The notes beneath the pieces were generated by a model. That model was not told where the DNA came from. It saw only the letters and a program-made list of their open reading frames with translations, and searched no databases. A program made the translations under genes and the position numbers. Below, piece by piece: positions 30,100-53,375 of a stretch of 64,000 nt of DNA. The DNA comes from Arenibacter sp. F20364 (GTDB lineage Bacteria > Bacteroidota > Bacteroidia > Flavobacteriales > Flavobacteriaceae). The stretch's first letter is position 1. Each line of letters starts with the position of its first letter. The stretch lies in NCBI RefSeq assembly GCF_023015905.1, contig NZ_JALKBD010000006.1, positions 1 to 64,000 of the forward strand, read 5' to 3'.

Positions 30100-31908
30100 A
30101 TGAATAAACATAGCTTTCATATACCGGTTATGGGAATTGGGTTTACCATAGACACCCCGCTAAAAGTTGCCCACCTTGGTATAGATTCTGTAATTTCTTT
30201 GGTCGATGACATTCTAATTGAAAAATTAAGGAAGATGTACTGTGAAAAATTTGAACTTCCATATCAGGAAATTTCAGATAAATTGGAAGATTTTAGGGCC
30301 AAAAGAATTACCAGTTATCTCAACTTGATCAATGATGTAGCACACAAAAAATTTGCTGACCTAATTAATTCTGCCCATGAAACAGGTAAAGAAATAAGGG
30401 ATTATTTAAGTCTCCTGCCCAATGCTTCCCATTTAAAGGAAGAATTTGAAAATCTGACTTCCGGTGATTTTAGCGTCGCGGAAATTAAAAAATGGTTAAA
30501 GGAAAACTTGTCCATAGGCAGCATCGATGTCAATATTATGACCAAGGTGGACAAGGACAATTACAACAAAAACGACAAACTGCCTACCGAATTTAATGAC
30601 GCCCATGCAGCCTTGCGTGGATATGCCAACAGCGAACTTATTTCCTCCGTCATCCTTTCTGCCGGAATGAACCCTCGACTTTATAGTTATATGGAAAATT
30701 TCGATGATTTTTTTCCAGATGAAAATGGCAACATTAAAAAGAAAATAGTCCTAAAAGTAAGCGATTATAGGTCCGCCCTGATACAAGGTAAGTTCTTGGC
30801 CAAAAAAGGAATTTGGGTATCGGAGTATAGAATAGAATCCGGTCTCAATTGCGGTGGACATGCCTTTGCTACCGATGGATATTTAATGGGGCCGATCTTG
30901 GCCGAGTTCAGGAACAACAAAGAGGTCTACATTGAAGAAATACACGATATCTTAATTCCAGCTCTTGCCAACAAAGACCGTGTAGTACCCAAACAAAACC
31001 TATCCCTAAAAATAACGGCTCAAGGAGGTGTGGGTACCGCAGAGGAACACCAATTTTTAATGGATCATTACAAAGTGGATTCTGTTGGTTGGGGAACCCC
31101 ATTTCTATTGGTTCCTGAGGCTACCACCGTGGATAAGGCCACACTGGAAAAATTGGTCGCTGCAAAAGAAGAAGACTTGTACCTGAGTGACATTTCACCC
31201 TTGGGAGTACCCTTCCATAACCTTCGTGGAAACACCAAGGATTTGGAAAAGTTTAAAAACATAGACAAGGATCGCCCGGGAAGTTCCTGTCCAAAGAAAT
31301 TTGTGGCCTTGAACAAGACCTATTCGGACAAAGGGCTTTGTACTGCCTCACGGCAATACCAACATTTGAAAATTAAGGAACTGGATGCACTAGGTTTGCC
31401 AGAAAAGGAATATACCGGAAAATTCAATAAAATAACAGAGAAATCATGTACCTGTGTAGGTCTTGGCACCTCAGCCTTATTGGCCTACGGCCTGGATACC
31501 AAAACCGAAGGATCGGGAGTTTCAATTTGTCCCGGACCCAATATGGCCTACTACTCCAAAATAATGCCCCTGAATGAAATGGTAGATCATATTTACGGGC
31601 GTGGCAATGTAATTTCGAGAACCGATAGACCCCATATGTTTATAAAAGAACTCGGAATCTACCTAGATTACCTTAAGAATAGAATTGAGGAATCCAGGGA
31701 ATCCATGAATAAGAAACAAGAGAAATACCTATTGACCTTTACCCATAATTTAAATGAAGGCATTGCCTATTACCAACAATTATTTGGAAATTTAAAAGGG
31801 CCATTTGAAGACGTAAAGCTTGCTGTTCTAGAGGAATTGACACAAGGGCTAAAAACATTGGAAGGCTTTAAACAGGACATAGAGGCACTTTCTTTGTCAA
31901 AGGTGTAA
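30100..31908 (+). CDS. Uncharacterised protein with flavin-TIM-barrel hints and cysteine-rich C-terminal part
   Basis: 602 aa, no signal peptide or membrane segment. I do not recognise a named family. Near residues 305-345 the stretch QGGVGTAEEH..VDSVGWGTPFLL resembles the phosphate-binding end of nitronate-monooxygenase or glutamate-synthase-type flavin barrels, and the N-terminal VMGIGFTIDTPLKVAHLG fits a barrel start; this is inference. Cysteines are arranged as NCGGHAF (251), SSCPKK (397), GLCTAS (414), SCTCVG (450, 452) and SICPGPN (477), a possible metal or Fe-S site. The last 80 residues are helical. The gene stands alone, with a terminator region on each side, and is transcribed toward the phosphonate-like locus. 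Confidence 0.85.
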   Translation: MNKHSFHIPVMGIGFTIDTPLKVAHLGIDSVISLVDDILIEKLRKMYCEKFELPYQEISDKLEDFRAKRITSYLNLINDVAHKKFADLINSAHETGKEIRDYLSLLPNASHLKEEFENLTSGDFSVAEIKKWLKENLSIGSIDVNIMTKVDKDNYNKNDKLPTEFNDAHAALRGYANSELISSVILSAGMNPRLYSYMENFDDFFPDENGNIKKKIVLKVSDYRSALIQGKFLAKKGIWVSEYRIESGLNCGGHAFATDGYLMGPILAEFRNNKEVYIEEIHDILIPALANKDRVVPKQNLSLKITAQGGVGTAEEHQFLMDHYKVDSVGWGTPFLLVPEATTVDKATLEKLVAAKEEDLYLSDISPLGVPFHNLRGNTKDLEKFKNIDKDRPGSSCPKKFVALNKTYSDKGLCTASRQYQHLKIKELDALGLPEKEYTGKFNKITEKSCTCVGLGTSALLAYGLDTKTEGSGVSICPGPNMAYYSKIMPLNEMVDHIYGRGNVISRTDRPHMFIKELGIYLDYLKNRIEESRESMNKKQEKYLLTFTHNLNEGIAYYQQLFGNLKGPFEDVKLAVLEELTQGLKTLEGFKQDIEALSLSKV

Positions 31909-31910
31909 TA

Positions 31911-31942
31911 AAAAATAGCTCCTTCCCTTGGTTAAGGGAAGG
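31911..31942 (-). terminator. Terminator for the minus-strand locus, within a repeat-like spacer
   Basis: CCTTCCCTT/AAGGGAAGG with a four-base loop (31921-31942), followed on the minus strand by AGCTATTTTTT. It can end the phosphatase transcript coming from 32087. The stretch 31943-32086 (GGAGGCGGAGACGG, ACGGTAGG) is purine- and GC-rich, unlike its surroundings, and looks like an interspersed intergenic repeat. Confidence 0.6.
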
Positions 31943-32086: not shown

Positions 32087-33682
32087 TTAATTATTCGTCA
32101 TAAATGTAGCGGTAGTTGACCAATCGCTCCAATTTAAATTTTGGTCGCGGTATCGGACCCTCCAGTAATAGGTAGTGTTGGATTTTAACCTATTGGTTTC
32201 TTCATCGGTAAGGTCATCCCCCTTTTGCCTATTTTCCTTGTAATACCAATTTTCATATTGTTTCCAGCTGTCAAAAATTGGCTTTTCAAAGTCATTGCTC
32301 TCGGCAACCTGCCAGTGTGAGGCCGCATGGAAGGCATTGCTAAAACTGCTGTTGAAATCCCCTGCCTTTAGGATAGTTCCGGTAAAATCGACCGTTTCGT
32401 TATTAGGTGAGATAACACTGGGAACCCCAGGTTTTCTTTCGTTTTTAAATATTACAAGGCTGTCCCTGAGTTCGTTTTTTCGTTCCAATTCTTCGTTGCC
32501 CTGACTAATTCTCTTGATGGTAAACTTTGGATCTTGCTGATTGGCATCTACTTCCACCATCACAAAACCATATTCGTCCTGGGTTACCGTAAATTCATCG
32601 TAATCCCTGCCTTCAAATTCCCCCCAATTATCAATGGCCCCTCCTGCCGAGGCCACATTTATCCAAAGGTGCTTATGGTCCTTGGACTGTCCTCTGGAAT
32701 AGCCGTGGGTATGCCCAAAAAAGTGAATACTGGGCTTCCCTGTCTTGGTGGTAAATGCCTCCAAAAGGGCCACCACTTTTCCAGTAAAATCCTCTTCCCC
32801 CGGAATCCAAAGTTCGGATTTATGGGGGTGGTGTAATTGAGCAAACACAAAATCCACCTCCTCGTTCTTGGCGGTTTCATCCAAAAGCTTTTGCAACCAT
32901 TCGTACTGATCCCTACTGTTGTTATAACCATCGTTGGAATTGAGCCCAATAATCCTAGTATTCCCGTAATCCTTAAACCACCAATGCTCAGCATAGGCAG
33001 GAGTACCGTTTTCGGGAAGACTAAAGTATTTAAAATAGAATACCGAATTTTTTTCGTGATTCCCCAAAACTGGATATACGGGCACTTCTGAAAACAATTT
33101 TTCCGCAGGATTAAAAAAATGTTCCTTCCATTGAAAATATTTGGTGCCATTCTCTACCAAATCCCCAGGTATCATTACCATGGCCAAATTGCTGGGAAGA
33201 TTCCCGCCGAACTCCTTTTCCAAATATTGCAATATGCCATCATTTACGACCTCTGAAAATTTATTGGGGTTGTTATGGTCTATTTGCATATCGCTCATCG
33301 CCACAATTTTGAAGGACTCGTGGTCACTGGCGAAGGGAGGGGTTTTAAACTGAAATACATCCGAAACCACCTTGCCCGTTTTAACGCGGTAATAATATTC
33401 GGTAAAACGCTTTAGTCCTTCCAATTTAACCTCGTGGATACGGGATTCACTGAAATTGATGTCATATGCAATGCCCTTGGTCTTTTTTCCTAGTTTTGGT
33501 GTTAATCCCCATTCCACTATGCTTTCTTCCCCCACTGAAGTTTCCCACATAATTTTAATGGAATTAGGCTCCGCATCCTGAAGATAGGGTTGAATTAAAA
33601 ACTCTCCCTCTACATTTTGGGCACTGCCCACTAAATGGAATGCCATAGTAATAAACAATACTACTTTAATCTTAATTTTCAT
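32087..33682 (-). CDS. Exported purple-acid-phosphatase-like metallophosphoesterase
   Basis: 531 aa after choosing the ATG at 33682, which gives a clean signal peptide (KIKIKVVLFITMAFHLVGSAQ). Domain order: an N-terminal fibronectin-III-like domain of about 90 residues (YLQDAEPNSIKIMWET..), a calcineurin-type phosphoesterase domain with MSDMQID, GDLVENG, GNHE, LHHPHKSE and FGHTHGYS metal motifs, and a C-terminal Fn3-like domain (TTYYWRVRYRDQNLNWSDWS). It probably releases phosphate from phosphomonoesters outside the cytoplasm. It is the last gene of the SusCD-linked locus, 105 bases after the PLP enzyme. Confidence 0.88.
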   Translation of the reverse strand: MKIKIKVVLFITMAFHLVGSAQNVEGEFLIQPYLQDAEPNSIKIMWETSVGEESIVEWGLTPKLGKKTKGIAYDINFSESRIHEVKLEGLKRFTEYYYRVKTGKVVSDVFQFKTPPFASDHESFKIVAMSDMQIDHNNPNKFSEVVNDGILQYLEKEFGGNLPSNLAMVMIPGDLVENGTKYFQWKEHFFNPAEKLFSEVPVYPVLGNHEKNSVFYFKYFSLPENGTPAYAEHWWFKDYGNTRIIGLNSNDGYNNSRDQYEWLQKLLDETAKNEEVDFVFAQLHHPHKSELWIPGEEDFTGKVVALLEAFTTKTGKPSIHFFGHTHGYSRGQSKDHKHLWINVASAGGAIDNWGEFEGRDYDEFTVTQDEYGFVMVEVDANQQDPKFTIKRISQGNEELERKNELRDSLVIFKNERKPGVPSVISPNNETVDFTGTILKAGDFNSSFSNAFHAASHWQVAESNDFEKPIFDSWKQYENWYYKENRQKGDDLTDEETNRLKSNTTYYWRVRYRDQNLNWSDWSTTATFMTNN

Positions 33683-33786
33683 TTTTTGATCTAAATATTT
33701 ATGGTGATTAAATCCTAAATTTATTTTAATAAGTATCATATCGATTTATCCTGATAGGCAGGCTCTACCACACTAACTCTTTTTGA

Positions 33787-35151
33787 TTACGAATGCACTA
33801 TGGCCAAACTTTCATCTAGCATATTTAAGGCCATATCCAATTCTTTTCTGCTTATAGTAAGGGCTGGTGACAATTGCAGTACATTGCCAGCAGAAACCTT
33901 AAAACTGAGACCTCGCTTTAAACATTCGTACATGACCACTTCAGCTTCATCTATGGCCTTTTCCTTGGTCTTTTTGTCCTTCACCAATTCTACGCCCCAT
34001 AATAATCCCATGCCCCTTACATCCCCTATTAAAGGATATTTTAATTGCAGAGCTGCCAAGGACGATTTCAGGTATTTCTCATCTGCCCTGACCTTGTCGA
34101 ACATTTTTTCATTTTCCAAAAACGCAATGGTACCAAGACCTGCCACTGCACCCAACGGACTTTTTTCATGGGTATAATGCCCAAGGGAGATATCCCCAAA
34201 TTTGTTGTATTCGTCCCTAGTAATTATTGCGGCCTGTGGAAAAATACCGCCTCCCAATCCTTTGCCGATACACAAAATATCGGGTTCAATATCATAATGT
34301 TCGAATACGAACATTTTACCGGTTCTTCCCAAGGCAATAGGAATTTCGTCCAGTATCAGCAAGACTCCATATTTGGTACAAAGTTCCCTCGCCTTTTTCC
34401 AAAATGATTTGGAGGGCAATTGCACATCCGTATTCCGGATCGTTTCGGCAATAAAAGCCCCAATATCACCCTCCTTGGAAAACACATATTCCAAATATTC
34501 CAAACACTTATCCTCATTGTCCTCAAAAATTCCGCGATAGGCAATGGGTGGTGGAATGCGTTCTACTCCAGGCATCAATGGCCCCATAGACTCCCTAAAT
34601 ACGGCTTCCCCACCCACACTGATGGCATCCAAGGAGGCCCCGTGAAACGAATCCCAAAAAGAAACCACCTTAAACCTTCCAGTTACTGCCCGCGCCAATT
34701 TTAAGGCAATTCCTATGGAGGAACTTCCATTGGGCGTTAAAAGCACCCTATTAAGGTCTGATGGCGCCAGGGACGCCAATTTCTCGGCAAAATCAATAGC
34801 TGGAACATTGGTATACCGTCTTGGGGAGAAAGGCAACACTTTTAATTGCTCTACAATTTGTTCTATGAGTTGGGGATTGGCATAGCCCACCTGATGAACG
34901 TTATTACCATGAAAATCCAAATATTTTTTACCTGATATATTTTCGATATAGGGCCCCTCGCAACTTTGTAGAACATCCAAACATGGGGTAGACATGGATT
35001 GATGCAAAAAATATCGAGCATCCCTATCCAAAATCTTTTTGGTTTCATCACTTATCTGGGAATCCATCCACGCAGCACGTGCCGGGGTAAAATTAATATC
35101 TCCTTCCGTTTTTTTGTTCTGGGCAACTTTGCCATGACTATCTTGCTTCAT
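33787..35151 (-). CDS. Class III PLP enzyme, PbfA-like ((R)-1-hydroxy-2-aminoethylphosphonate ammonia-lyase candidate)
   Basis: Cytoplasmic fold-type I PLP enzyme of 454 aa. The PLP lysine is Lys297 in CIGKGLGGG; DEIPIALGRTG carries the pyridine-binding Asp. The N-terminal stretches EGDIN, RYFLHQSMSTPCLDVL, DFHGNNVHQVGYANP and SPRRYTN, as I remember them, are characteristic of PbfA, which deaminates (R)-1-hydroxy-2-aminoethylphosphonate to phosphonoacetaldehyde. The related phosphoethanolamine phospho-lyases (ETNPPL) and ordinary omega-transaminases are the alternatives. It overlaps the metallo-beta-lactamase gene by 14 bases, so the two are translationally coupled. No PhnX or PhnY lies beside it. 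Confidence 0.75.
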   Translation of the reverse strand: MKQDSHGKVAQNKKTEGDINFTPARAAWMDSQISDETKKILDRDARYFLHQSMSTPCLDVLQSCEGPYIENISGKKYLDFHGNNVHQVGYANPQLIEQIVEQLKVLPFSPRRYTNVPAIDFAEKLASLAPSDLNRVLLTPNGSSSIGIALKLARAVTGRFKVVSFWDSFHGASLDAISVGGEAVFRESMGPLMPGVERIPPPIAYRGIFEDNEDKCLEYLEYVFSKEGDIGAFIAETIRNTDVQLPSKSFWKKARELCTKYGVLLILDEIPIALGRTGKMFVFEHYDIEPDILCIGKGLGGGIFPQAAIITRDEYNKFGDISLGHYTHEKSPLGAVAGLGTIAFLENEKMFDKVRADEKYLKSSLAALQLKYPLIGDVRGMGLLWGVELVKDKKTKEKAIDEAEVVMYECLKRGLSFKVSAGNVLQLSPALTISRKELDMALNMLDESLAIVHS

Positions 35152-36394
35152 AAGGTCCGTATTTTGCTATTATTTCTCTTTCTTCCGAATCATCGTTAAG
35201 GATGTAAATCCCATATTGTCTTCCTTTGTCATATACCCTAACCACAATATGCCCGTTCTGACTTTTATATTGATCCAACCTATTACCAATTACATCTTTA
35301 GTGGGTTGTAGCATAACCGTGGAGAATATATCGCGTTCCCCAGGATAAAGCTCTTTTGAGGTGATTCTCCTTAATACTTCCTCCCCAGGATGGTCCGATG
35401 ACCAATTTTGTTGGATCCAGACCCTGGGCTTAAGTGTTCTTACAAAGAATATATTTTGGGAATCCCTGTTCCCATAATGGTTTAAAGTAGCTATATCCAC
35501 GGGGCCAATTACCGGTGCCACGTGGGATTCCAAACCATTAAAATTTGTTTGTCCAAAAGCATCCACTCCACTAATATCACCTCCTGCAAAATAATCGAAC
35601 TCGCCAAAGGTTATTTTAATACATGTACTTAAAGGGTTTTCCCCAGGATATACCCCATTGGAAAATAATGAAAAATAGTCTTCATTTTCCCCAGTCCACA
35701 CATTGCCGTTAACGGCAATATTACGGACTGAAAAGTTCGGGAAATTATCGGGTGAATTTTTTAGTTTGATTTGATTGATTGCCCCAGGTTTTAAGGTTTC
35801 GTATGTCATGCCATCCACCTTGGTGTGATAATCCATGTACTTCCAGTATTCCTGCAGGGTCTCAATCATACTATAGGAATCGTTTGCCTTAATTTCCTTT
35901 TGTACTTGCGGATTCTTTAAATCGATGGGGTAATCACATCCGCGGTCCAAATGGGATTTGATAGGCAATAGACTCCCCACCTCCATTATTCCGGTTAAGG
36001 CATAGTTTCCCTTTGGGTGTCTTTTCCTATTACCATCCATCTCTCCAAAATGGTCGTCATGAAAATGAGTAATTAGGCCATAATCCAGTTGAATCGATCT
36101 ATTTTTTGGAAAAAATTGATGTATGTAATCCACGATCCACTCCGGTGCGGTCCTGGAATTATCGGGTTTCTGTACCGCATTTCTGGCAGATAAAGTTCTA
36201 GGATGGGTTTCGGACATGTCGCCTGCATCCACCAAGAGCGTGGTCGCATCCGGAAAAACAAAAAAAGCGGCATCCCCCCTACCTGTATTGATATGATGAA
36301 TATCCAACATCCCCTCTTCCCACGCAGCTAATTGCCCTCCTTTGTCTTGGGCCCTTACTAGCATCATGGATAAAAGAAAGAATATGAACTTCAT
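35138..36394 (-). CDS. Exported metallo-beta-lactamase-fold hydrolase
   Basis: 418 aa, starting at the ATG at 36394 with a short signal peptide (KFIFFLLSMMLVRAQ); an upstream TTG overlapping the previous stop is less likely. The zinc motif is THFHDDHFG near residue 107, followed by GGDISG and LNHYGNRDS at the later ligand positions. The overall arrangement (HHINTGRGDAAFFVFPD..LLVDAGD) resembles the ComEC C-terminal type of MBL enzymes, many of which act on phosphodiesters. It lies 27 bases after the phosphodiesterase gene and overlaps the PbfA-like gene, implying one operon. Confidence 0.83.
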   Translation of the reverse strand: MKFIFFLLSMMLVRAQDKGGQLAAWEEGMLDIHHINTGRGDAAFFVFPDATTLLVDAGDMSETHPRTLSARNAVQKPDNSRTAPEWIVDYIHQFFPKNRSIQLDYGLITHFHDDHFGEMDGNRKRHPKGNYALTGIMEVGSLLPIKSHLDRGCDYPIDLKNPQVQKEIKANDSYSMIETLQEYWKYMDYHTKVDGMTYETLKPGAINQIKLKNSPDNFPNFSVRNIAVNGNVWTGENEDYFSLFSNGVYPGENPLSTCIKITFGEFDYFAGGDISGVDAFGQTNFNGLESHVAPVIGPVDIATLNHYGNRDSQNIFFVRTLKPRVWIQQNWSSDHPGEEVLRRITSKELYPGERDIFSTVMLQPTKDVIGNRLDQYKSQNGHIVVRVYDKGRQYGIYILNDDSEEREIIAKYGPYEAR

Positions 36395-36421
36395 TGATAA
36401 ACCTTTTACCGCTATTTCCAA

Positions 36422-38137
36422 TTACTTTAGTATTGATGTAGATAGCACTTGTTTAGGAATGGTCTTGGTTTGATAATCCACGTTCAACCATCCACTACCG
36501 CCTCCGTTAAACCATACCACTTTTAAAGGATAAGTTCCGGGCGTTAACGCTATTCTTCCATTCTTTTCCATTACTCCGTGATCCCCATCATTGTCCACGA
36601 TCAATTGATTGTTTACCCATAGTTTACTACCATCATCAGAATTGGTATAAAATGTATAGGTACCTTCCTCATCGATCTGAATTTTGGTAGTGAATCTCAC
36701 TACAGTGTTGTCGCGGATTTCCTCCTCTACTTCATCCGAGGTAATTTCAAAAGAAGTTCCCTTAGCATCCGGTCTTTTATTTTCCAGGCTTGGAATGCTG
36801 GTCAAGTTTTCCAAATAAAATACCTCATAAGATATGGGCGGCGCCATTGTCTTATTTTTTATTCTAAAAAAGGCCTCCGAAACCATACTGGCAATTTTCC
36901 CATTTATAAAAATAGCACTTTTAACCGCCACATTTTCAGTAGTCTTGACAGCTTCGGTATATAAGGCGGAATTACGGTTGGGCATAGAACCATCCAAAGT
37001 ATACCTTATCTCTCCTATGGCATTGGGGTTTTTCATAATAATACTTGCGGAATCATCAAACAAACCCCCAGCCCGTTTATAGAAATCGGCTGGTGGTAGT
37101 ATCGTTGGTTTCATGATCCTTTCCGTAATTGGATAATCATCTCTAAGATCATAACCCTCAAAAGCATTCTTTACGGGTTTGCCTATCCAGGCCATTGGCC
37201 TATTTATCCCCATAGCAAAGGCAACCGTTGCAGCATTGTCGTATTGGTATACTGGGTATTTAAGTACATGGTTCTTCTTGATCGATTTCCCCCAAAGGAT
37301 AAAAGGAATTTCTACTTCCCCCAAAGATTCCCCTCCATGGCCTTTCCCCAATCCACCGTGATCTGCACTTATGATAACCAAGGTTTCATCTGCCATTCCA
37401 GATGCCTTTATAGCTTCCATTACTTCAGCAAGCAATTCATCCGCTTTTTCCACGGATTTGTAATATTCAGGACTTCCATGGCCATATTCGTGCCCACCGT
37501 GATCTACATGATCAAAGTGAATAAATGTGAAGGTTGGTTTTTTATCCTTAATATAGGCACTGGCCAAGGCCGCTGTTTCATCCTCGGAATCAGGACTTAT
37601 GTCATAATCCACAGCCCCTTTCTCGAACAACCGTCCAAATCCCGTCCAATGATAAATAGCTCCAATTTCTGCATCTTCCCAATTGTCGTTGATCAATTGA
37701 AAAATAGTAGGAAAAAGGAAGTCTTCACTTTGCGTAATTGCCGGCAATATAAAATTGTTTTTCTCCCAGCTATTGGAAGTAATCCCATGTTGCTCTGGCC
37801 CGGCACCCATAATCATGGAAGCCCAGTTGGTACTGGAACTGGTTGGTAGAACCGCCCTGGCATGCATGGTTGAAGCCCCTTCACTTATAATCCCATCAAA
37901 GGTTGGAGTAGTTGCTTTATTCAATCCATCGGGACTTAATCCGTCAAAACCAATAACTACAACATGCTTTACTATGGGGGAATTTTCACGCTCTTTTTTG
38001 GCACAGGACCAAAATGAACCCGATATGATCACAAATACAATTGTTTTAAGCAATAATTCCTTCGTGAAAACTTTATGCAAGTTGCCCGAAATAGCCGAAA
38101 ACAAGACGGTTTTTAGTACAATATTGGCTTTGCTCAT
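36422..38137 (-). CDS. Secreted alkaline-phosphatase-superfamily phosphodiesterase with chitobiase-C and PA14 domains
   Basis: 571 aa, N-terminal hydrophobic segment ending in GSFWSCAKK, a probable lipoprotein signal after an unusually long 45-residue leader. The catalytic domain (about residues 58-345) has the NPP/PhnA-type metal motifs: IGFDGL, a nucleophile loop PTSSSTNWASM, HFDHVDHGGHEYG, ISADHGGLGKGHGG. Then a chitobiase-C-like strand domain (GEIRYTLDGSMPN..) and a C-terminal PA14-like domain (YTFYTNSDDGSKLWVNNQLIVDND). The family includes nucleotide pyrophosphatases and phosphonoacetate hydrolase. The substrate is unknown; the PA14 part suggests binding to glycans. Confidence 0.87.
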   Translation of the reverse strand: MSKANIVLKTVLFSAISGNLHKVFTKELLLKTIVFVIISGSFWSCAKKERENSPIVKHVVVIGFDGLSPDGLNKATTPTFDGIISEGASTMHARAVLPTSSSTNWASMIMGAGPEQHGITSNSWEKNNFILPAITQSEDFLFPTIFQLINDNWEDAEIGAIYHWTGFGRLFEKGAVDYDISPDSEDETAALASAYIKDKKPTFTFIHFDHVDHGGHEYGHGSPEYYKSVEKADELLAEVMEAIKASGMADETLVIISADHGGLGKGHGGESLGEVEIPFILWGKSIKKNHVLKYPVYQYDNAATVAFAMGINRPMAWIGKPVKNAFEGYDLRDDYPITERIMKPTILPPADFYKRAGGLFDDSASIIMKNPNAIGEIRYTLDGSMPNRNSALYTEAVKTTENVAVKSAIFINGKIASMVSEAFFRIKNKTMAPPISYEVFYLENLTSIPSLENKRPDAKGTSFEITSDEVEEEIRDNTVVRFTTKIQIDEEGTYTFYTNSDDGSKLWVNNQLIVDNDGDHGVMEKNGRIALTPGTYPLKVVWFNGGGSGWLNVDYQTKTIPKQVLSTSILK

Positions 38138-38329
38138 TTTGATTGGTTTTAGTTTTTGATTAATGAATAAGTGTAAATATCATGTGACTAAGTTAAGTCA
38201 AAAAGTTAATAATATTAAATTTTTGTAACTATAACTAAAATTTTTGGGAATCTGCCATATTCCCGATACTGTACCCATCCCAATTATTTTTTAAATCAAA
38301 TTGAGTTACGTAGTTCAATTAAAAGGCAA

Positions 38330-38355
38330 GGCCATAGTAGAAATCCACTATGGCC
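38330..38355 (-). terminator. Hairpin between the SusD and phosphodiesterase genes
   Basis: GGCCATAGT/ACTATGGCC with an eight-base loop, followed on the minus strand by TTGCCTTTT. The weak T-run suggests partial termination or processing, so that susCD transcripts exceed those of the enzymes. The rest of this 302-base gap is AT-rich and probably holds the promoter of the downstream genes; TTTTTG-N19-TATTTACA is only a weak match. Confidence 0.55.
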
Positions 38356-38439
38356 CTGGATACATAAAATATTGGCTATGGTTTTGTATTCTCAATCATT
38401 TAGGGCAATATGCCAACAAAGACCATTTGTTAACGAAAA

Positions 38440-39921
38440 TTATTCCAACCACCAGGTAATTTCACGAATCTTGTCATTTCCTGCTCCAAATTGACTTTCT
38501 ATAGCAGCTGCTACATTAACAGAATTATTATTATACTCAGAATTTGGGTATATCCATCGAGTTGGAGGAGTAGCATCAGGCAACTGGGCAAAGGCAGGGA
38601 ATCCTGTCCTTAAATGATCAAAATAAGACCTCCATCCTGATTGCAAAAAGGAAGTAAAATACTTCTGGGTCAAAATAAGATCCAACTTTTCATCAGAGGA
38701 AAGTCCATTATCAAATGCCACCGCTGCGCCCAAAAGATAGGTGTCGGCATCTGAAGCGTCAACATAGGCCTCGAAATTCTTGGCATAATCGTTATAAAAA
38801 CTAAAAGAAGCTTTTACGGCATTTTCATAATGATCTTTTGCATCGGTACCGATCCAACCACGTACGGAAGCCTCGGACAAAATGAACTCCAATTCCCAAT
38901 ACCCCATAAGGTTATGCGGCTCTGTGGTAGGGTCTGTCGTGTACCTCAAGTTTACTTTGGAGACATCACCAGCTGCTGCCTTATCATTTACTTCTGCATA
39001 TGGCGCTAAGGGATCTCCTCCTTCATAAGCCGAAAAATCATCTATTGCCAATCCCGCTTCCTTGGCGTTTTTGGTCTGACCGCAATAAATAAACAATCTA
39101 GGATCCTGTCTGTCCTGAAGCCTTTCTATAAAGGTAGAAGACATATACATTCCCGATCCATAACCACTGGAGTTGAATTCTGTATACCTACTTCCTTCCT
39201 CATCCAGAAATACCAACTGACCATTGTCCTCATTAGAAACCATTATAGGCTCATTATTGTATATACTGGCAAATGAGCTTATTACGTTCAAGTCTGCATC
39301 TCCTTCCTTTTTGGAAAGGGTCATAAGGACTTTTAATCTAAAGGAATTGACCAATTTTTGCCATTTAGTAGTATTCCCGCCGTATATAATATCTCCGGCA
39401 ATGATGTTGGTATTCCCCTCCAAAAGATCATTAGCTTCTGACAATTCCTTCAAAATTCCGACAAATACTTCTTTTTGGGTATCATACTTAGGCAGATACT
39501 TTTCCTCTGTTTCCCCTTGAAGAGCTTCGCTATAGGGGATATCACCAAATGTAAGGGTAAGGTTGTAGAAGTAATACGCCCTAAAAAATTTGGATAGGGC
39601 AATATATTCATCGCTCTCAATACGCTCTGCCTCCTGCATCATCTTGGTGACCTCCCCAAGCATATTGTAGTCATCAAAACTAGCACGGTCCCAATTATAG
39701 TATTGATTGTTGTTCTCCCCATCTGTTTGTACCAAAATACGGGAAGCATATAAGGCTCCTGTACCTTGCACCCGAAAAGCGCTACTGGCAATATTGGTCA
39801 ATAGCAATTGTGGGTGTGTTTCACTAACATTATTCGGGTTGTCATTTAATTCCGTAAGGTCCTGACATCCGGTAAGGACCAACAATACGGTTAGGCTAAA
39901 TAAAATTCCTATTTTTTTCAT
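38440..39921 (-). CDS. SusD/RagB-family outer-membrane lipoprotein (SusD-like_2 type)
   Basis: Surface lipoprotein that captures substrate and caps the SusC pore (493 aa from the ATG at 39921). Lipobox LLVLTGC. The N-terminus DLTELNDNPNNVSETHPQLL is typical of the SusD-like_2 (PF12771) branch, which is often tied to peptides or non-standard ligands rather than starch-like glycans. TPR-like helices follow (SKFFRAYYFYNLTLTFGDIPYSEAL) and WRSYFDHLRTGFP lies near the C-terminus. It starts 13 bases after susC ends. Confidence 0.93.
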   Translation of the reverse strand: MKKIGILFSLTVLLVLTGCQDLTELNDNPNNVSETHPQLLLTNIASSAFRVQGTGALYASRILVQTDGENNNQYYNWDRASFDDYNMLGEVTKMMQEAERIESDEYIALSKFFRAYYFYNLTLTFGDIPYSEALQGETEEKYLPKYDTQKEVFVGILKELSEANDLLEGNTNIIAGDIIYGGNTTKWQKLVNSFRLKVLMTLSKKEGDADLNVISSFASIYNNEPIMVSNEDNGQLVFLDEEGSRYTEFNSSGYGSGMYMSSTFIERLQDRQDPRLFIYCGQTKNAKEAGLAIDDFSAYEGGDPLAPYAEVNDKAAAGDVSKVNLRYTTDPTTEPHNLMGYWELEFILSEASVRGWIGTDAKDHYENAVKASFSFYNDYAKNFEAYVDASDADTYLLGAAVAFDNGLSSDEKLDLILTQKYFTSFLQSGWRSYFDHLRTGFPAFAQLPDATPPTRWIYPNSEYNNNSVNVAAAIESQFGAGNDKIREITWWLE

Positions 39922-39934
39922 TTTGTGTCTTTTT

Positions 39935-42900
39935 CTAAAATTTAACATTAACGCCTATACCAATGTACCTAGTGGAAGGATCCTGTAAATTGTTATCGTT
40001 CCCAAAATCTGGATCAATGATATCAGCTTTCTTCCATACCAATAGATTGTATCCGCTAAGGGTTACATCTAGATTTTTAACACCGTTGATATTTGCCAAT
40101 TCGGTGAAGTCATATTTAAAGGAAAGGGTTCTTAATTTAAAAAAGCTACGATCGAAAATATTAGCGAATTTTTCGCTTTCCTTATAGGTCACGGCAGCCC
40201 TATACGGATAGTTCTGCGACCAAGTCTGCCAGCTCACCGCTGTAGTATTCTGAGTGTATGTCCTAGTATCGGAAATAACATCGCCATTAACATCCTGTAC
40301 CAATTCCCCGCCTGTTACCTGTACCCCATCAGGGACATAAACCGGAACTCCTGCGGCGTATTCAGCATCCCTGTACTCGGTAGAATTTGGATGCTTACCG
40401 CCCCACCACATTTTTTCAACAGTTAATGAACGGATTAGTCCGCCCCATCCACCGTCTATACCTACATTAACGGTTAGGTTTTTGTACTTAAAACTGTTCT
40501 GAAGACCAAGGGTCCAATCTTGATCGTTATGTCCCAAAAGTTGTGGATAATTATCCCTAATAGGTAATCCGTTAGCACCTAAGATCAATTCTCCATCTGC
40601 AGACTTTTGCCATACAGTTGCATAGTAACTATCCGCCCTATCATTTAGTCTTAGATTATTATAGGTAGTATTGTTCCCATATATTTCGGTGATTTTCTGA
40701 ACCTTTCTACTCCAATTTGCTGTAAGGTTCCAATTAAAGTCATCCGTAAGAATTGGTTTGGCATTAAGTACCACTTCCAGACCATTGGTTGTATATTCAT
40801 TCCCATTTACCTTTCTATTTTCAAATCCTGAAGTGTTGGAAATTGGCAGATCTATAATCTGGTTGGTATCCACCACATTGTAATAGGTAAGGTCCAAACC
40901 AATCCTATTCTTTAAAAAAGCAGAACTTAGACCTAGCTCGAATGAATTTGAACTTTCGGGCTCTATATTGGCATTTACAAGACCATTAGGGTACTGCAAT
41001 TTAATATTGCCTCCAAAAACCCCGCTATTGGTATAATAAGACTCTGTGCTATAAGGGCTCAAATCACTGGAAACCTGTGCCCATGAGCCGTAAAGCTTTA
41101 GGTAATCCACGGCTTCCGGCATGGTTACGAAATTGGAAACAACTGTACTTAAAGAAACTGATGGATAAAAGTAAGAACGATTTTCCTTAGGTAGTGTAGA
41201 AGACCAATCGTTCCTTGCGGCCGCTGTTAAAAACACTGCATTGTACAGATCCAATCCCAAAGTGGCATAAACACTATTGGTCGCCCTTTCCTGTACATAA
41301 GTACTTGCTGCTACATTACCGCTGGTATTGTTTAGGCTATACACAAACGGTACCACAAGACCATCTGTAGAATTGTATTCCTGCTGGTATTTTCTATAAA
41401 AGGTAGAAGCACCGGCGTTGACATCGAAGGAAATATCCTCGGTCAAAGATTTAGTATAAGATGCCAAAATATCGTAGTCTACGGTCAATCTTTTGGAATT
41501 CCAAGTTTTATAATCCCCTTCCCTGGCATCGCCATAATTTAAATAGGTCTTGGGACTTTGCCTGTCCTCAAAAACATCCTGTATAACAGCAGAACCTCTT
41601 CCCTGTAAGTTTAAGCCCTCGGCAATGTTATACTTTAGGACCATCTGTGCATTGATAAGATCCGCATCGTATTTTTGATTCAATTCGTTGGCGGCAAAAT
41701 ATACGTTGTTATACCAGGCATAGTTAAAGTTGGCCTGTCTGTATCCTTCCTGTCCGGGAACATACATATGTTCTTTAAGATCCTGACCATCAACGTCATC
41801 ACCCATCCATATTAAAATGGTATACATGTGGTTCTTTGGTCCGTAGCCGTGTCTTGGATAGTTGGGCGAATACACCTTATTATAGGACAATTTACTGTCC
41901 AACGTAAGCGATTTGGACAAGTTGGTGGTAGACTTAAAAGTTAAACCTCCTGTTTTAAGACCGGAATTGGGAACCCTGTCTTTTTGGTCGGAATAATTTC
42001 CAGACAAACGGAAAGACCCTTTTTCTGACTTGCTTGATATTGCAAAATCAGTACTGGAAATATATCCAGTACCCATGAAATCCTTTAGGTTATCGTGATA
42101 TTCCCATGGTGTTGGCACTCTGGAATAACGGGATTTATCATCGTATTGCGTTCCATAGACATCTCCCCACCAAGGAATGGTTTCACCTGTAACACTATCT
42201 AAAATAGGACTGTTCCATTGGGAGACCATAACTCCAGGTTCAAATTTAGGACCCCAGATCATATCTCCATCGGAAATACCCCCATCTTTACCATCCCAGA
42301 ATTCATATTTACCGTTAGATCCGTTACCATATTCGGTCTGGGTTTCAGGAAAAACGGTGAATCCGGCAGATACCATAGTATTATGGGAAACAGTAATCTC
42401 CAATCCGTCAACCTTAGCGTTTTTAGTAGTAATCAATATAGCACCATTTCTACCTCTAGATCCATAAAGTGCAGATGCCGTTGTACCTTTTAACACGTTT
42501 ACATTGGCAATATTATTCGCAGATACATCGTAGAAATCGGTTTCAACAGGTATCCCATCAATTACGATCAAGGGCGATTTGCCCCTTAGGGAAAATGAAG
42601 GCTTTTGAAATAGCCCGGTAGGATTGCTAACACTTAGGCCTGCCACCTGACCAGTAAATAAATTTCCCACATTGGGAGCATTTATTTCCTCTATAATCTC
42701 CACATCCATTTTTTGGGTGGCATAACCAATCTTTTTCTCTGCTCTGGTAATCCCCAAAGCCGTTACTACCACTTCATTCAATTTTTCCGAATCGGGAAGA
42801 AGTACTATTTCCGCTGATGTTTTGCCCGAAGTGGCAAATTCAGTAGGAATATATCCTATATAGGAAACGAGGAGGATATCGCTTGCCGAATTTAATTCAA

Positions 42901-43078
42901 TTTGAAAATTTCCGTCAAAATCGGTAGCCACACCCTTGGCACTACCTTTAATGACCACCGATGCCCCTGGTAAAGGCGCATTGTTTTCATCCAAAACCGT
43001 TCCGGTAAATACTCCCTGGGAATAGCCCATGATAAATGCAAAAAAGGCAAATATCATAACAATACTTGTTTTGTTCAT
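39935..43078 (-). CDS. SusC/RagA-family TonB-linked outer-membrane transporter
   Basis: TonB-dependent importer (1047 aa). Signal peptide to about residue 20, a carboxypeptidase-like regulatory domain (GTVLDENNAPLPGASVVIKG, about 25-110), the plug domain with the SusC-type signature (LYGSRGRNGAILITT) and a 22-strand barrel ending in VNVKF. No N-terminal STN or FecR-type signalling domain is seen, so regulation by a cognate anti-sigma factor through STN is unlikely. Its partner SusD follows. Confidence 0.95.
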   Translation of the reverse strand: MNKTSIVMIFAFFAFIMGYSQGVFTGTVLDENNAPLPGASVVIKGSAKGVATDFDGNFQIELNSASDILLVSYIGYIPTEFATSGKTSAEIVLLPDSEKLNEVVVTALGITRAEKKIGYATQKMDVEIIEEINAPNVGNLFTGQVAGLSVSNPTGLFQKPSFSLRGKSPLIVIDGIPVETDFYDVSANNIANVNVLKGTTASALYGSRGRNGAILITTKNAKVDGLEITVSHNTMVSAGFTVFPETQTEYGNGSNGKYEFWDGKDGGISDGDMIWGPKFEPGVMVSQWNSPILDSVTGETIPWWGDVYGTQYDDKSRYSRVPTPWEYHDNLKDFMGTGYISSTDFAISSKSEKGSFRLSGNYSDQKDRVPNSGLKTGGLTFKSTTNLSKSLTLDSKLSYNKVYSPNYPRHGYGPKNHMYTILIWMGDDVDGQDLKEHMYVPGQEGYRQANFNYAWYNNVYFAANELNQKYDADLINAQMVLKYNIAEGLNLQGRGSAVIQDVFEDRQSPKTYLNYGDAREGDYKTWNSKRLTVDYDILASYTKSLTEDISFDVNAGASTFYRKYQQEYNSTDGLVVPFVYSLNNTSGNVAASTYVQERATNSVYATLGLDLYNAVFLTAAARNDWSSTLPKENRSYFYPSVSLSTVVSNFVTMPEAVDYLKLYGSWAQVSSDLSPYSTESYYTNSGVFGGNIKLQYPNGLVNANIEPESSNSFELGLSSAFLKNRIGLDLTYYNVVDTNQIIDLPISNTSGFENRKVNGNEYTTNGLEVVLNAKPILTDDFNWNLTANWSRKVQKITEIYGNNTTYNNLRLNDRADSYYATVWQKSADGELILGANGLPIRDNYPQLLGHNDQDWTLGLQNSFKYKNLTVNVGIDGGWGGLIRSLTVEKMWWGGKHPNSTEYRDAEYAAGVPVYVPDGVQVTGGELVQDVNGDVISDTRTYTQNTTAVSWQTWSQNYPYRAAVTYKESEKFANIFDRSFFKLRTLSFKYDFTELANINGVKNLDVTLSGYNLLVWKKADIIDPDFGNDNNLQDPSTRYIGIGVNVKF

Positions 43079-43313
43079 TCTTTTTAGTTTGTGATTTTTT
43101 AATTATTTAGTGAGCGCAAATATCCCTGGCACAGGTTAACTAAACCCTCAATTAATATTAAAAGATTGCAATGAAATGTGCTTAATTGTTAAAACAACGT
43201 TAAGGTCACAAATGAGACAAGAAAAGAACAAAATAGTACTTAAGAAGTTCTAAGAAAAGTGCATCCCTAAAAGAAATTTAAGGAGTGATAACGGGGAATA
43301 AACAGTAGAAAAT

Positions 43314-44603
43314 TTAAACCTCTACCAAGTGTATTTCCGACTTTTCCACCAATAAATTCTTCTTGTATTTCCTTTTAAAGTAGAAAAGTGAAACTAAAGT
43401 AATAATAGACCCCAAAACGGCGATTAAATAAGTGCTGGCCATAAAGAAATTTAGCCAAGAAAGGGAGCTCTGACCAAAATTCTTATAAAGCAGTACTCCC
43501 ATACTGCCCAAATAACCGAAAGCATCCGCAATATATATTAGGTATCCTGCATTGCCCTTTATACGGAAAGTGGCTATCATGCGATCGAAAAAAATACAGT
43601 TAAAAGGAACATAGCATATATAGAGTCCAAAACCAACACTGATCATCCAAAGAATAGGCGAAATTAAATCCATTTGAAACAACAAGGTAGAAAGACCAAT
43701 GGCAATAGTGCCAAAAAGCAATAGGTAATGATAGGAGACAAAAGCCTTATAATTATTTTTGATCACTCCCAAAAAACCTATGATAACCAGTACCAATATG
43801 GCGATAGGCAGTTCCGATAAGGTATATATGGCGGCATCCCCCTCAAAACCTAAGGCATCCCAGATCTCCCTGGAAAAATTATCCCTGAAATCGCGCAATG
43901 CCGTTAAAAAAGTGTAGAAAAAAACCAAAATTATAATCGGGAACAAGAACGCAAGAAAAACCCTTTTCCTATCCTTTCCTGTCATAGGTTGCCGTTCTGT
44001 TCTAAGTTCCTTATCCTCCTCTGTAGGTTGGGGCATTCTATTCAATAACCAGGCAAAAAACACAAAAGGAGCCAAAAAAACAGCTCCAGTAACAGATGGC
44101 ATCCAAAATTGGGACACCTGCAAGTTTTCCATAACCAAAAGACCAACAGATTTTACCGCACCACTGGATACAATAAAGCTGGAACACAAAGCCACACCCA
44201 AAAATTCGGTAAACTTTCTACCTTCCAAATATGAAAATACAATTCCCCAGACCATCCCCAACGGAAGTCCATTTATAAACATAAATATAAAATTATAGGG
44301 GGCAGGAGTTATGGCGAACAAAAGTAGACTTACCTCAGCTGCAAGAATTAAGCCCAAAAGATAATATATTCTCTTGTTGGGCTGAAGCTCGGAAATTACT
44401 TTGATACCTATAAATTTAGAAAGCATATAGCCCATAACCTGGGCTATAATCAAGATTATCTTGTAATCGACCCCAGCAAAAGAAAGATCCTCAAACGTGG
44501 CTACTGTAAAAGGCTTACGAAAGGCATACATGCAAAAATAAGTGCCAAAGGAGGCAAATGCCCCATACAGCAAAAACGAAATATCTTTTTTTACTAGCTT
44601 CAA
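43314..44603 (-). CDS. DUF5690 major facilitator transporter
   Basis: 429 aa with 12 predicted helices. The first loop FGTYFCMYAFRKPF recalls the RK motif of organophosphate:phosphate antiporters such as UhpT and GlpT (YLVRKNF), and the soluble middle loop (PTEEDKELRTERQPMTGKDRKR) sits between helices 6 and 7. DUF5690 members have no fixed substrate. A TTG at 44603 is the only plausible start near the first helix. It is the first gene of the SusCD-linked locus, 235 bases before susC, which fits an inner-membrane importer for the released product. Confidence 0.85.
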   Translation of the reverse strand: MKLVKKDISFLLYGAFASFGTYFCMYAFRKPFTVATFEDLSFAGVDYKIILIIAQVMGYMLSKFIGIKVISELQPNKRIYYLLGLILAAEVSLLLFAITPAPYNFIFMFINGLPLGMVWGIVFSYLEGRKFTEFLGVALCSSFIVSSGAVKSVGLLVMENLQVSQFWMPSVTGAVFLAPFVFFAWLLNRMPQPTEEDKELRTERQPMTGKDRKRVFLAFLFPIIILVFFYTFLTALRDFRDNFSREIWDALGFEGDAAIYTLSELPIAILVLVIIGFLGVIKNNYKAFVSYHYLLLFGTIAIGLSTLLFQMDLISPILWMISVGFGLYICYVPFNCIFFDRMIATFRIKGNAGYLIYIADAFGYLGSMGVLLYKNFGQSSLSWLNFFMASTYLIAVLGSIITLVSLFYFKRKYKKNLLVEKSEIHLVEV

Positions 44604-48308: not shown

Positions 48309-48890
48309 TTAATCCGGCATTACCTCTACGATCATTTCAATCTCCACGGCTATATTTCCGGGAAGGGACCCCATACCTACTGCAGCACGGGCATGTTTAC
48401 CCCTATCTCCAAATACGGCCACCATTAAATCTGAATATCCATTGATCACCTTGGGATGATCGGGAAAATCCGGTCCTGCATTTACCATTCCCAAGACTTT
48501 AACCACCCGAACTACCTTATTTAGGTTTCCCAATTCCGATTTTAAGACGGATAACTGATTGATCCCCGTAATTCGGGCAGCCTCATAACCCTCCTCTATG
48601 GTTAGATCTGTCCCGACCTTACCCTCTATATTTTCCCCATTGGCTTGCAAAGGGCCTTTTCCGGAGAGAAAGATGAGATTTCCAGAGCGAACGGCATTTA
48701 CATAATTCGCTACTGGAGCACTGGCCTCCATTAAGGTTATGCCCATTTCCTTAAGTTTTTCCTCCGGATCATAATCGGCCGGGATCACAGGAGTTTCAAT
48801 ATTAACTGGCGCCTCCACATCTTCTTTTTTTGTATTGCAGGAAATGGTCATGAAGGCTATTAAAAGGACTAAAAAATACTTAAAATTCAT
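48309..48890 (-). CDS. RidA/YjgF-family protein with lipoprotein signal
   Basis: Cytoplasmic RidA hydrolyses reactive enamine and imine products of PLP enzymes. This copy (193 aa) has a lipobox (AFMTISCNTKK, Cys18) and about 35 linker residues, so it acts outside the cytoplasm. The RidA domain shows RSGNLIFLSGKGPL, ITGINQLSVLKSELGNLNKVVRV and HARAAVGMGSLPGNIAVEIEMI with the substrate-binding Arg in HARAA. It is the last gene of the row, 29 bases after a Tat-signal PLP lyase, which would produce exactly such intermediates. Confidence 0.9.
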   Translation of the reverse strand: MNFKYFLVLLIAFMTISCNTKKEDVEAPVNIETPVIPADYDPEEKLKEMGITLMEASAPVANYVNAVRSGNLIFLSGKGPLQANGENIEGKVGTDLTIEEGYEAARITGINQLSVLKSELGNLNKVVRVVKVLGMVNAGPDFPDHPKVINGYSDLMVAVFGDRGKHARAAVGMGSLPGNIAVEIEMIVEVMPD

Positions 48891-48919
48891 ACGCTTATTT
48901 TTAAAATATACTCTATTAA

Positions 48920-50134: not shown

Positions 50135-50207
50135 AATTCATTTTTTATAGATTAATCCAAGTCAACAATACAATGTATTTACTACAGTTAGTTCCAAGTA
50201 AGCGAGC

Positions 50208-51461: not shown

Positions 51462-51504
51462 TTTTTAAAAGTATTAGTTGATATAAACACCTAGCCTATA
51501 ATTT

Positions 51505-53223: not shown

Positions 53224-53375
53224 TGATTGTATATTTAATAAACCTGTGATTGACTCTCCATCATGGGCAATTTTCACCAAAACCAATTATTCCCCAAATA
53301 TGATTTGGACTGGAATTGTTGTATTACCCGATAATAATATATTCAGCCTGCATGTAATTCCTGCCTTAAACTTTA

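Follow-up and report, generated by a model that had tools for sequence, protein, structure and literature searches.

SusCD loci for organic phosphorus were already published in 2020, when the PusCD system of Flavobacterium was described with co-located 'phosphonate-degrading enzymes' (PMC8115612). The initial annotation, which was not aware of a described SusCD locus for aminophosphonates or phosphodiesters, is corrected on this point. Like the locus reported here, PusCD combines a SusCD pair with phosphomonoesterases and phosphodiesterases. In contrast, the main text of that article does not mention PhnX, PhnW, DUF5690 or an aminotransferase, and PusCD is Pi-regulated, whereas the locus in the window (the 64-kb stretch of Arenibacter DNA that was analysed) is centred on PbfA. 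The same PbfA family occurs in proteobacterial PhnW-PbfA-PhnX and PhnWAY-PbfA clusters, in which phosphonoacetaldehyde is passed to a C-P hydrolase or to PhnY-PhnA (PMC8154272), but none of 22 gammaproteobacterial PbfA loci had SusC, SusD, NPP or DUF5690 within 10 kb. The accessible part of PMC12366243 states that pbfA-phnY-phnA occurs only in Proteobacteria; contrary to this, PbfA-PhnA-PhnY were found in tandem in a Flavobacteriaceae genome (L031). The characterised transporters in the literature consulted take up free 2-aminoethylphosphonate (AEP), and the AEP permease AepP is described as GlpT-related (both from the accessible part of PMC8316502). No locus like the present one is described in the accessible parts of PMC8812569, PMC9381506, PMC11036162 and PMC6298971. 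Against this background, what is new is a form of the locus centred on PbfA and found in many genomes, together with the link to DUF5690, an either/or pattern of C-P hydrolases and a probable match to a published Maribacter SusCD pair. The locus is, with good probability, a SusCD-based phosphonate utilisation locus, as predicted from its gene content.

The window contains seven ORFs in a row between positions 32087 and 44603, all on the minus strand, in the order DUF5690, SusC, SusD, NPP-type phosphodiesterase, MBL hydrolase, PbfA and purple-acid-phosphatase-like (PAP) enzyme. The seven-gene run that had been annotated was thus confirmed, with family matches for six of the seven ORFs. The intergenic gaps are operon-like (235, -14, 302, 0, -14 and 47 bp, in the order from DUF5690 to PAP), and a hairpin scan detected a terminator-like hairpin on the same strand downstream of the last gene, PAP (31921..31942). 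The gene set was found again in many genera and is therefore not a product of chance. Two features of a PusCD-type locus are present, i.e. a SusC-SusD pair (TIGR04056 and PF12771 over their cut-offs) and phosphomono- and phosphodiesterases rather than CAZymes (NPP and PAP over cut-off, MBL adjoining).

PbfA (33787..35151, minus strand) was identified by its score with the equivalog model NF049939 (727.4 bits, cut-off 525), its tree position and its N-terminus. In a midpoint-rooted FastTree of 101 sequences, which shows no support values and does not include the characterised V. splendidus PbfA, it forms a clade with gammaproteobacterial PbfA from PhnW-PbfA-PhnX clusters, and more distant class III aminotransferases fall apart from it. 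L079, L082, L096, L141 and L152 were dropped from the tree as repeats, as were proteins outside 380-520 aa; the sequence set A1 comprised the window protein and 10 of the 22 other PbfA matches. Judged by its sequence, the protein is a member of the (R)-1-hydroxy-2-aminoethylphosphonate (R-HAEP) ammonia-lyase family and not an ordinary transaminase, in agreement with the initial annotation.

The neighbourhood search that had been suggested was run, and conservation was found to extend beyond close strains. Among 21 PbfA loci of Flavobacteriaceae, SusC, SusD and PAP were present within 10 kb in 18 each, NPP in 17 and MBL in 12 (not found in the other 9), as scored with HMMs built for the analysis at self-chosen thresholds, so that genes more than 10 kb away or past the end of a stretch were missed. 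PbfA had none of the scored partners at 2 of the 21 family loci and at 12 of 52 other Bacteroidota/FCB loci, and thus PbfA alone does not prove a phosphonate theme; 6 of 80 loci (L143, L156-L160) were not counted, and L096, L152, L141 and L082 repeat L025, L035, L043 and L029, so that the two locus counts are not independent. The cytoplasmic enzymes that recur in these loci, namely PbfA, TIGR03364, TIGR03351, PhnW and PhnX, belong to aminophosphonate metabolism or are related to enzymes that do. TIGR03364 and TIGR03351 genes are present in the loci of many relatives, where TIGR03364 (401 over 285) adjoins DUF5690 and TIGR03351. According to the accessible part of PMC10590968, the TIGR03364 family includes an enzyme shown to convert N-methyl-AEP and AEP to phosphonoacetaldehyde. 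These partners argue against general phosphorus scavenging, in which a PusCD-type locus would deal broadly with organic phosphorus of mixed kinds and PbfA would serve only one of several uses. Such a role would fit the several phosphoesterase folds in one locus, the retention of the enzymes while SusCD differs between lineages and the induction of Flavobacterium PusCD by Pi depletion, but it is considered improbable.

C-P hydrolases accompany PbfA in an either/or pattern. TIGR03351 was over cut-off in 14 of the 21 PbfA genomes compared with 1 of 15 without PbfA, PhnA in 6 of 21 compared with 1 of 15, and the two together in none of the 36 genomes. Exactly one type was thus present in 20 of the 21 PbfA genomes, G121 alone having neither, and either type was present in only 2 of the 15 others (Fisher p=6e-7), which had been taken from the listed rows without a PbfA match, not at random, and are mostly smaller. 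In a wider draw from the family TIGR03351 was present in 19 of 249 genomes, 13 of 20 with PbfA and 6 of 229 without (p=1e-12), if the 249 genomes are assumed to be G000-G248.

The pathway initially drawn could be retained in part: no C-P cleavage step is encoded within the window, but it exists elsewhere in the same genome, where PhnA, PhnY and PhnW lie together on another contig. PhnA (458.8 bits over 407.55) and PhnW (TIGR03301, 409 over 360.8) exceeded their cut-offs and PhnY (625.9) was 10 bits under its own of 635.65, and hence the genome apparently has a complete route for the consumption of phosphonoacetaldehyde. C-P lyase was rejected as the C-P-breaking step, the own genome having no PhnJ. 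PhnX was rejected as well: the best TIGR01422 score in the own genome was 46.6 compared with a cut-off of 220, and none of the 21 PbfA genomes exceeded it. Two stronger hits of the PhnX search in the own genome were read as generic HAD proteins, judged by sequence and neighbours. PEP mutase, the enzyme of phosphonate synthesis, was over cut-off in none of the 21 PbfA genomes, the own genome included, which argues for degradation and against biosynthesis or recycling of self-made phosphonate.

The outer membrane components are a SusC/RagA TonB-linked transporter (39935..43078, minus strand; TIGR04056 496.1 bits, cut-off 368.25) and a SusD-like surface lipoprotein of the SusD-like_2 type with the lipobox LTGC (38440..39948, minus strand; PF12771 236.7 bits, cut-off 27). 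Transporters of this type are usually associated with sugar polymers. The SusC and SusD of the window are only about 30-35% identical to the pairs of most relatives, and thus the ligand may differ. SusCD could in principle import an ordinary algal glycan, e.g. laminarin oligosaccharides, the phosphorus enzymes being incidental. In laminarin-grown Maribacter forsetii the most upregulated pair was a SusC/D whose neighbours are annotated as alkaline phosphatase, FAD-dependent oxidoreductase and phosphonatase-like hydrolase (PMC11345257, accessible part). The present locus probably matches this pair, published as a laminarin transporter. Apparently the same pair was reported on laminarin and on glucose and apparently not in the casamino-acid control (same part of PMC11345257), which counts against the phosphonate reading. 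However, carbon was limiting in the Maribacter controls, which grew on casamino acids, and the addition of sugar would therefore also shift C:N and C:P. In addition, a Pfam scan of the seven genes detected none of the CAZymes (GH/PL/CE) of a classical polysaccharide utilisation locus, neither glycoside hydrolases nor polysaccharide lyases; the carbohydrate-type domains are confined to accessory PA14, chitobiase-C-type and Ig-like domains. A glycan locus is therefore also regarded as unlikely, and the phosphonate rather than glycan theme of the initial annotation was largely supported by the PbfA score, the conservation of the locus and the co-occurrence with C-P hydrolases.

Three genes encode exported hydrolases, all on the minus strand. 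The NPP-type phosphodiesterase (36422..38137; PF01663 110.4 bits, over cut-off) carries PA14 (67.7) and chitobiase-C/Fn3-like domains and is probably a surface lipoprotein, a crude lipobox pattern being present in 29 of 42 homologues. It has the NPP fold (VIA-align Z 30.2 with Xac NPP), and S101, D65, D212, H216, D259 and H260 were invariant in all 26 aligned proteins (the window protein and 25 of 45 NPP, near-duplicates and one split gene having been dropped by eye). We take these residues to be the nucleophile and metal positions by comparison with NPP motifs. The NPP nucleophile is typically Thr, and the corresponding position is Ser101. The nearest structures, i.e. Xac NPP, ENPP7 with phosphocholine, PafA and phosphonate monoester hydrolase, are too close to one another (Z 30.2-27.2) to assign a substrate; it is proposed that the enzyme hydrolyses phosphonate or phosphate esters. 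The MBL-fold protein (35138..36421) matched no Pfam or NCBIfam model at E 0.001, and its metal motif H119-x-H121-x-D123-H124 was conserved without exception in the 20 proteins aligned (the window protein and 19 of 24 MBL, selected in the same way). Its closest PDB sequence is the pneumococcal teichoic acid phosphorylcholine esterase Pce/CbpE (1wra, E=1e-6, the match being divided between two short segments). Pce cleaves headgroups off a polymer of the cell surface, and a role as headgroup esterase is proposed for the MBL enzyme. However, the identity to Pce over the structural alignment is 16%, and by structure (VIA-align) the ComEC MBL domain ranked higher than Pce (Z 25.8 and 22.2, respectively). 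The enzyme may instead be nuclease-like, as ComEC is. The MBL gene is deleted in one Arenibacter strain. The third protein is a PAP-like metallophosphoesterase (32087..33739; PF16656 64.5 bits, PF00149 57.7 bits).

DUF5690 (43314..44603, minus strand; PF18943 582.7 bits, E=4e-175) is a polytopic membrane protein with 10 hydrophobic segments in a crude scan, and is not named in the literature searched. It was present in 18 of the 21 PbfA genomes compared with 1 of the 15 Flavobacteriaceae genomes without PbfA. In 16 of the 21 it lies within 11 kb of PbfA, although only 6 were scored in the 10-kb count. Of 28 further DUF5690 genes from the whole phylum, 20 lie near phosphonate genes; the 8 loci with no phosphonate gene nearby count against the link. 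Its former description as 'OPA-like' goes back to one weak match to TIGR00881 (E=1.6e-5). An OPA-type permease adjoins PhnW in the window's genome (L071), but a comparison of a DUF5690 profile (the window protein and 15 of 53 others) with all 6 AepP-like proteins beside PhnW in these bacteria detected nothing (hhalign probability 0.2%), and no PDB chain matched at E<=1. No relationship of DUF5690 to these OPA permeases was thus detected. DUF5690 is proposed to be a cytoplasmic-membrane importer of aminophosphonate.

In the model that we infer, the molecule captured by SusD would carry a phosphonate and would most likely be a piece of a glycan or lipid to which R-HAEP or a similar aminophosphonate is attached; SusC, energised by TonB, would transport it to the periplasm. 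The NPP enzyme at the surface, together with the MBL and PAP-like enzymes, would cut phosphonate and phosphate esters, in a presumed order, to free a small aminophosphonate, which DUF5690 would carry across the inner membrane, and PbfA would remove ammonia to yield phosphonoacetaldehyde. PhnY and PhnA would turn this into acetate and phosphate in the own genome, and the locus-encoded TIGR03351 hydrolase would be the likely C-P-cleaving enzyme in most relatives. Exported hydrolysis followed by cytoplasmic catabolism, as first suggested, is supported. Since the cytoplasmic enzymes that recur with the locus are those of phosphonate metabolism, the phosphodiester also considered as main substrate, e.g. 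glycerophosphoethanolamine, is less likely. It is very unlikely that lipids or glycans are trimmed outside the cytoplasm to release phosphoethanolamine for a PLP enzyme acting as ethanolamine-phosphate phospho-lyase, yielding acetaldehyde, ammonia and phosphate without C-P cleavage: the class III fold is shared with that lyase (6tor, 148.6 bits), exported phosphodiesterase types are present and phosphodiesters are the presumed targets of published PusCD loci, but the NF049939 score, the C-P hydrolase family in 20 of 21 PbfA genomes and the TIGR03364 and TIGR03351 genes of relatives all stand against it.

The phosphonate reading can be extended to a joint proposal for which the chances seem evenly balanced: a widespread Bacteroidota SusCD class for polymer- or lipid-bound phosphonates, with DUF5690 as a new aminophosphonate permease family, Pce-like and NPP-like surface phosphonyl-ester hydrolases, TIGR03351 as a dedicated phosphonoacetaldehyde hydrolase, and some glycan-credited SusCD pairs, such as the 'laminarin' pair of M. 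forsetii, included. Bacteria are thought to devote most of their capacity for phosphonate synthesis to cell-surface glycans and lipids (PMC6697681, accessible part). If true, the conserved combination of SusCD with esterases at the surface would open a direct route to this bound pool, and it makes such a route testable; the similar clusters in many related bacteria suggest that phosphonates are consumed in a way that has received little attention. The locus also provides functions that can be tested for DUF5690 and TIGR03351, and the neighbouring genes should be checked before expression of a SusCD pair is taken as a sign of glycan use.

A plus-strand ORF of 602 aa adjoins the run. It matched neither Pfam nor NCBIfam families and was seen only in Arenibacter among the loci examined, and for these reasons it was kept out of the locus. 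A hairpin consensus scan yielded 20 sites, whereas shuffled sequence gave 13.2 (sd 3.8). Among the sites listed, the one with the longest stem, 14 bp followed by a T-rich tail, lies in the gap between SusD and NPP (38327..38358, minus strand) and is a possible attenuator for the enzyme genes downstream.

The seven minus-strand genes described in the initial annotation (32087-44603) were verified among the ORFs of the window. They encode a DUF5690 protein (43314-44603), SusC (39935-43078), SusD (38440-39948), an NPP-type phosphodiesterase (36422-38137), a metallo-beta-lactamase-fold (MBL) hydrolase (35138-36421), the PLP enzyme PbfA (33787-35151) and a purple-acid-phosphatase-like enzyme (PAP, 32087-33739), all on the minus strand. 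A 14-bp overlap is found in two adjacent gene pairs, and in two others the gap does not exceed 47 bp. The widest gaps lie between DUF5690 and SusC (235 bp) and between SusD and NPP (302 bp), the latter containing a hairpin with a 14-bp stem (38358-38327). A terminator-like hairpin is present 3′ of the last gene, PAP. The contig, C149, belongs to an assembly of 5.74 Mb in 181 contigs.

The closest named PbfA loci were those of Arenibacter algicola (94% identity) and Arenibacter sp. F26102 (93%), which makes an Arenibacter the very likely host. The listed gammaproteobacterial relatives, mostly from Vibrio and Photobacterium, were 56-61% identical, with the exception of Endozoicomonas-like fragments in the 63% band. 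In a midpoint-rooted tree of 101 sequences, drawn without support values, the PbfA of the window shared a clade with gammaproteobacterial enzymes from PhnW-PbfA-PhnX clusters, and more distant class III aminotransferases fell outside it. The biochemically studied PbfA of V. splendidus (PMC8154272) was not among these sequences. The PbfA step would end at phosphonoacetaldehyde, with the C-P bond still intact.

C-P hydrolases were compared in 36 genomes, 21 with PbfA and 15 without, the latter mostly smaller and taken from the genomes listed without a match. TIGR03351 (PhnX-like) exceeded its cut-off in 14 of the 21 versus 1 of the 15, and PhnA in 6 versus 1. The two never occurred together (0/36), and G121 was the only PbfA genome with neither. 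None of the 21 PbfA genomes had PhnX proper above its cut-off. The window's genome falls in the PhnA group (458.8 bits, cut-off 407.55). Its PhnW (409.4 bits, cut-off 360.8), a PhnY just below the cut-off (625.9 versus 635.65 bits), PhnA and an OPA-type permease are consecutive on contig C170. In the SusCD locus of the Flavobacteriaceae genome G129 (L031:9284-13377) PbfA, PhnA and PhnY stand in tandem, the latter two over their cut-offs. The pbfA-phnY-phnA combination is stated, in the available part of PMC12366243 (2025), to occur in Proteobacteria only, and thus G129 is a counter-example. PEP mutase was over the cut-off in none of the 21 PbfA genomes, and the C-P lyase PhnJ was not found in the window's genome, so that the locus looks made for phosphonate consumption.

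A PbfA match at E<=1e-100 was found in 21 of 299 Flavobacteriaceae genomes (19 of 236 genera). The neighbourhood is kept beyond close strains, as SusC and SusD were each within 10 kb of PbfA in 18 of these 21 loci, together with PAP (18), NPP (17), TIGR03351 (14), MBL (12), an alkaline-phosphatase-superfamily enzyme of about 360 aa (11) and TIGR03364 (9). The fullest order, pieced together for genome G011 from the stretches L079 and L036, which overlap, was DUF5690, TIGR03364, TIGR03351, a regulator on the opposite strand, SusC, SusD, NPP, MBL, PbfA, PAP and the 360-aa enzyme. From TIGR03364 onward this order was common to many named loci, with or without MBL, DUF5690 lying at or beyond the edge of the stretch. 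In Leeuwenhoekiella (L103-L105) the DUF5690-TIGR03364-TIGR03351 block is placed after PAP, and locus L078 is rearranged further. Compared with G011, the window locus is trimmed: the interval from DUF5690 to SusC lacks the regulator, TIGR03351 and TIGR03364, and the 360-aa enzyme is missing too. A sister Arenibacter has lost MBL as well, and 14 residues of its end remain before PbfA.

Between genera, PbfA, MBL and PAP were mostly 60-78% identical and NPP about 45-66%. The identity of SusC and SusD was only about 30-35% (exception: G172, 71/66%), which suggests replacement of the outer-membrane components around a retained set of enzymes. Among 52 further Bacteroidota/FCB loci, which include some repeats of the family set, PbfA was accompanied by SusC in 27, SusD in 25, NPP and TIGR03351 in 26 each, DUF5690 in 22, PhnW in 8 and PhnX in 7; 12 had none of the scored partners. 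Partner-free genes (within 10 kb) were seen in Chitinophagaceae-, Sphingobacteriales- and Mucilaginibacter-type genomes (L093, L094, L095, L100, L114, L124, L127, L133, L144). In contrast to the Flavobacteriaceae loci, none of 22 gammaproteobacterial PbfA loci had SusC, SusD, NPP or DUF5690; PhnW was present in 22 and PhnX in 21.

DUF5690 was present in 18 of the 21 PbfA genomes, in 16 on the PbfA contig at a distance of at most 11 kb, versus 1 of the 15 without PbfA; in that one, G021, it lies beside TIGR03351 and TIGR03364. In the phylum it exceeded the cut-off in 29 of 296 genomes. Besides the window's genome, phosphonate genes (TIGR03351, TIGR03364-like, PhnW, PhnX, PhnA or PbfA) shared a 12-20 kb stretch with it in 20 of 28 and were absent in 8; in this count, TIGR03364-like assignments at 160-200 bits come from a custom model, not the curated one. 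In L206 the DUF5690 ORF was masked by a longer frame in ORF calling. A crude hydropathy scan showed the protein to be polytopic, and together with its neighbours this suggests a transporter. The proposed OPA-like nature was not borne out, as a profile comparison with OPA permeases gave no link. No mention of DUF5690 was found in the literature searched. In other families of the class (L199-L203, L207) an alkaline-phosphatase-superfamily enzyme of about 360 aa stands beside DUF5690 and SusC and/or SusD; these stretches are without PbfA, and most have a TIGR03351-like gene.

NPP has an atypical lipobox at its N-terminus, and PF01663 is followed by chitobiase-C/Fn3-like and PA14 domains. D65, S101, D212, H216, D259 and H260 were invariant in 26/26 aligned proteins. 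The structure model (pLDDT 86) matched NPP, ENPP7, PafA and phosphonate monoester hydrolase structures with Z 30.2 to 27.2. The NPP gene is split at L037:6323-7972 (331+189 aa) and shortened at L031:8267 (324 aa), with the adjoining genes present. The MBL enzyme matched no Pfam or NCBIfam family; its metal motif was invariant in 20/20 aligned proteins. In a profile search of the PDB the top hit was the pneumococcal phosphorylcholine esterase Pce (E=1e-6), which ranked second by structure (Z 22.2), after the ComEC MBL domain (25.8) and before the next matches (16.5). AEP tailoring of cell surfaces has been proposed to use phosphocholine-tailoring logic (PMC6697681, available part), and therefore a phosphocholine-type esterase is a sensible candidate for removal of the phosphonyl group.

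A published laminarin response has to be weighed against the phosphonate reading. According to the available part of PMC11345257, the top upregulated SusC/D pair of Maribacter forsetii on laminarin adjoins genes annotated as alkaline phosphatase, FAD-dependent oxidoreductase and phosphonatase-like hydrolase, and the Maribacter loci L083 and L084 comprise this same set. At face value this counts against phosphonates. The pair was expressed on glucose too, and no same-direction CAZyme is reported there near any SusC or SusD gene. The control was casamino acids under carbon limitation; given a log2 difference of 27.9, computed with zeros in place of missing values, the pair was apparently undetected in it. 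From the names of its neighbours, it is probably the same locus as L083/L084, answering phosphorus or nitrogen demand rather than laminarin. The phosphonate theme is well supported by the scores of the families, by the conservation of the gene sets and by the way one C-P hydrolase type or the other accompanies PbfA. The initial annotation was not aware of a SusCD locus described for phosphodiesters or aminophosphonates; SusCD loci for organic phosphorus are already known (PusCD, PMC8115612). The term PusCD occurred in two papers of the literature searched. The main text of PMC8115612 names neither PhnX, PhnW, DUF5690 nor an aminotransferase, and beyond that paper no SusCD locus for phosphonates was found in the portions of the literature available. 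Judged from sequence, the novelty lies in the arrangement around PbfA and how widely it occurs, in the association with DUF5690 and in the Pce-like enzyme.

PbfA appears to lie within a binding-protein/permease/ATPase (ABC-type) run in Snuella (L043:7915-12247) and Flaviramulus (L137:8525-12833), possibly another phosphonate importer. In the window, a 602-aa plus-strand ORF (30100-31908) without Pfam or NCBIfam match was Arenibacter-only among the compared loci (90-91% identity). YjgF-like, SelA/aminotransferase-V-like and amidohydrolase genes, then a cytochrome-bearing dehydrogenase-like gene (48309-53286, minus strand), apparently form a separate catabolic cluster.
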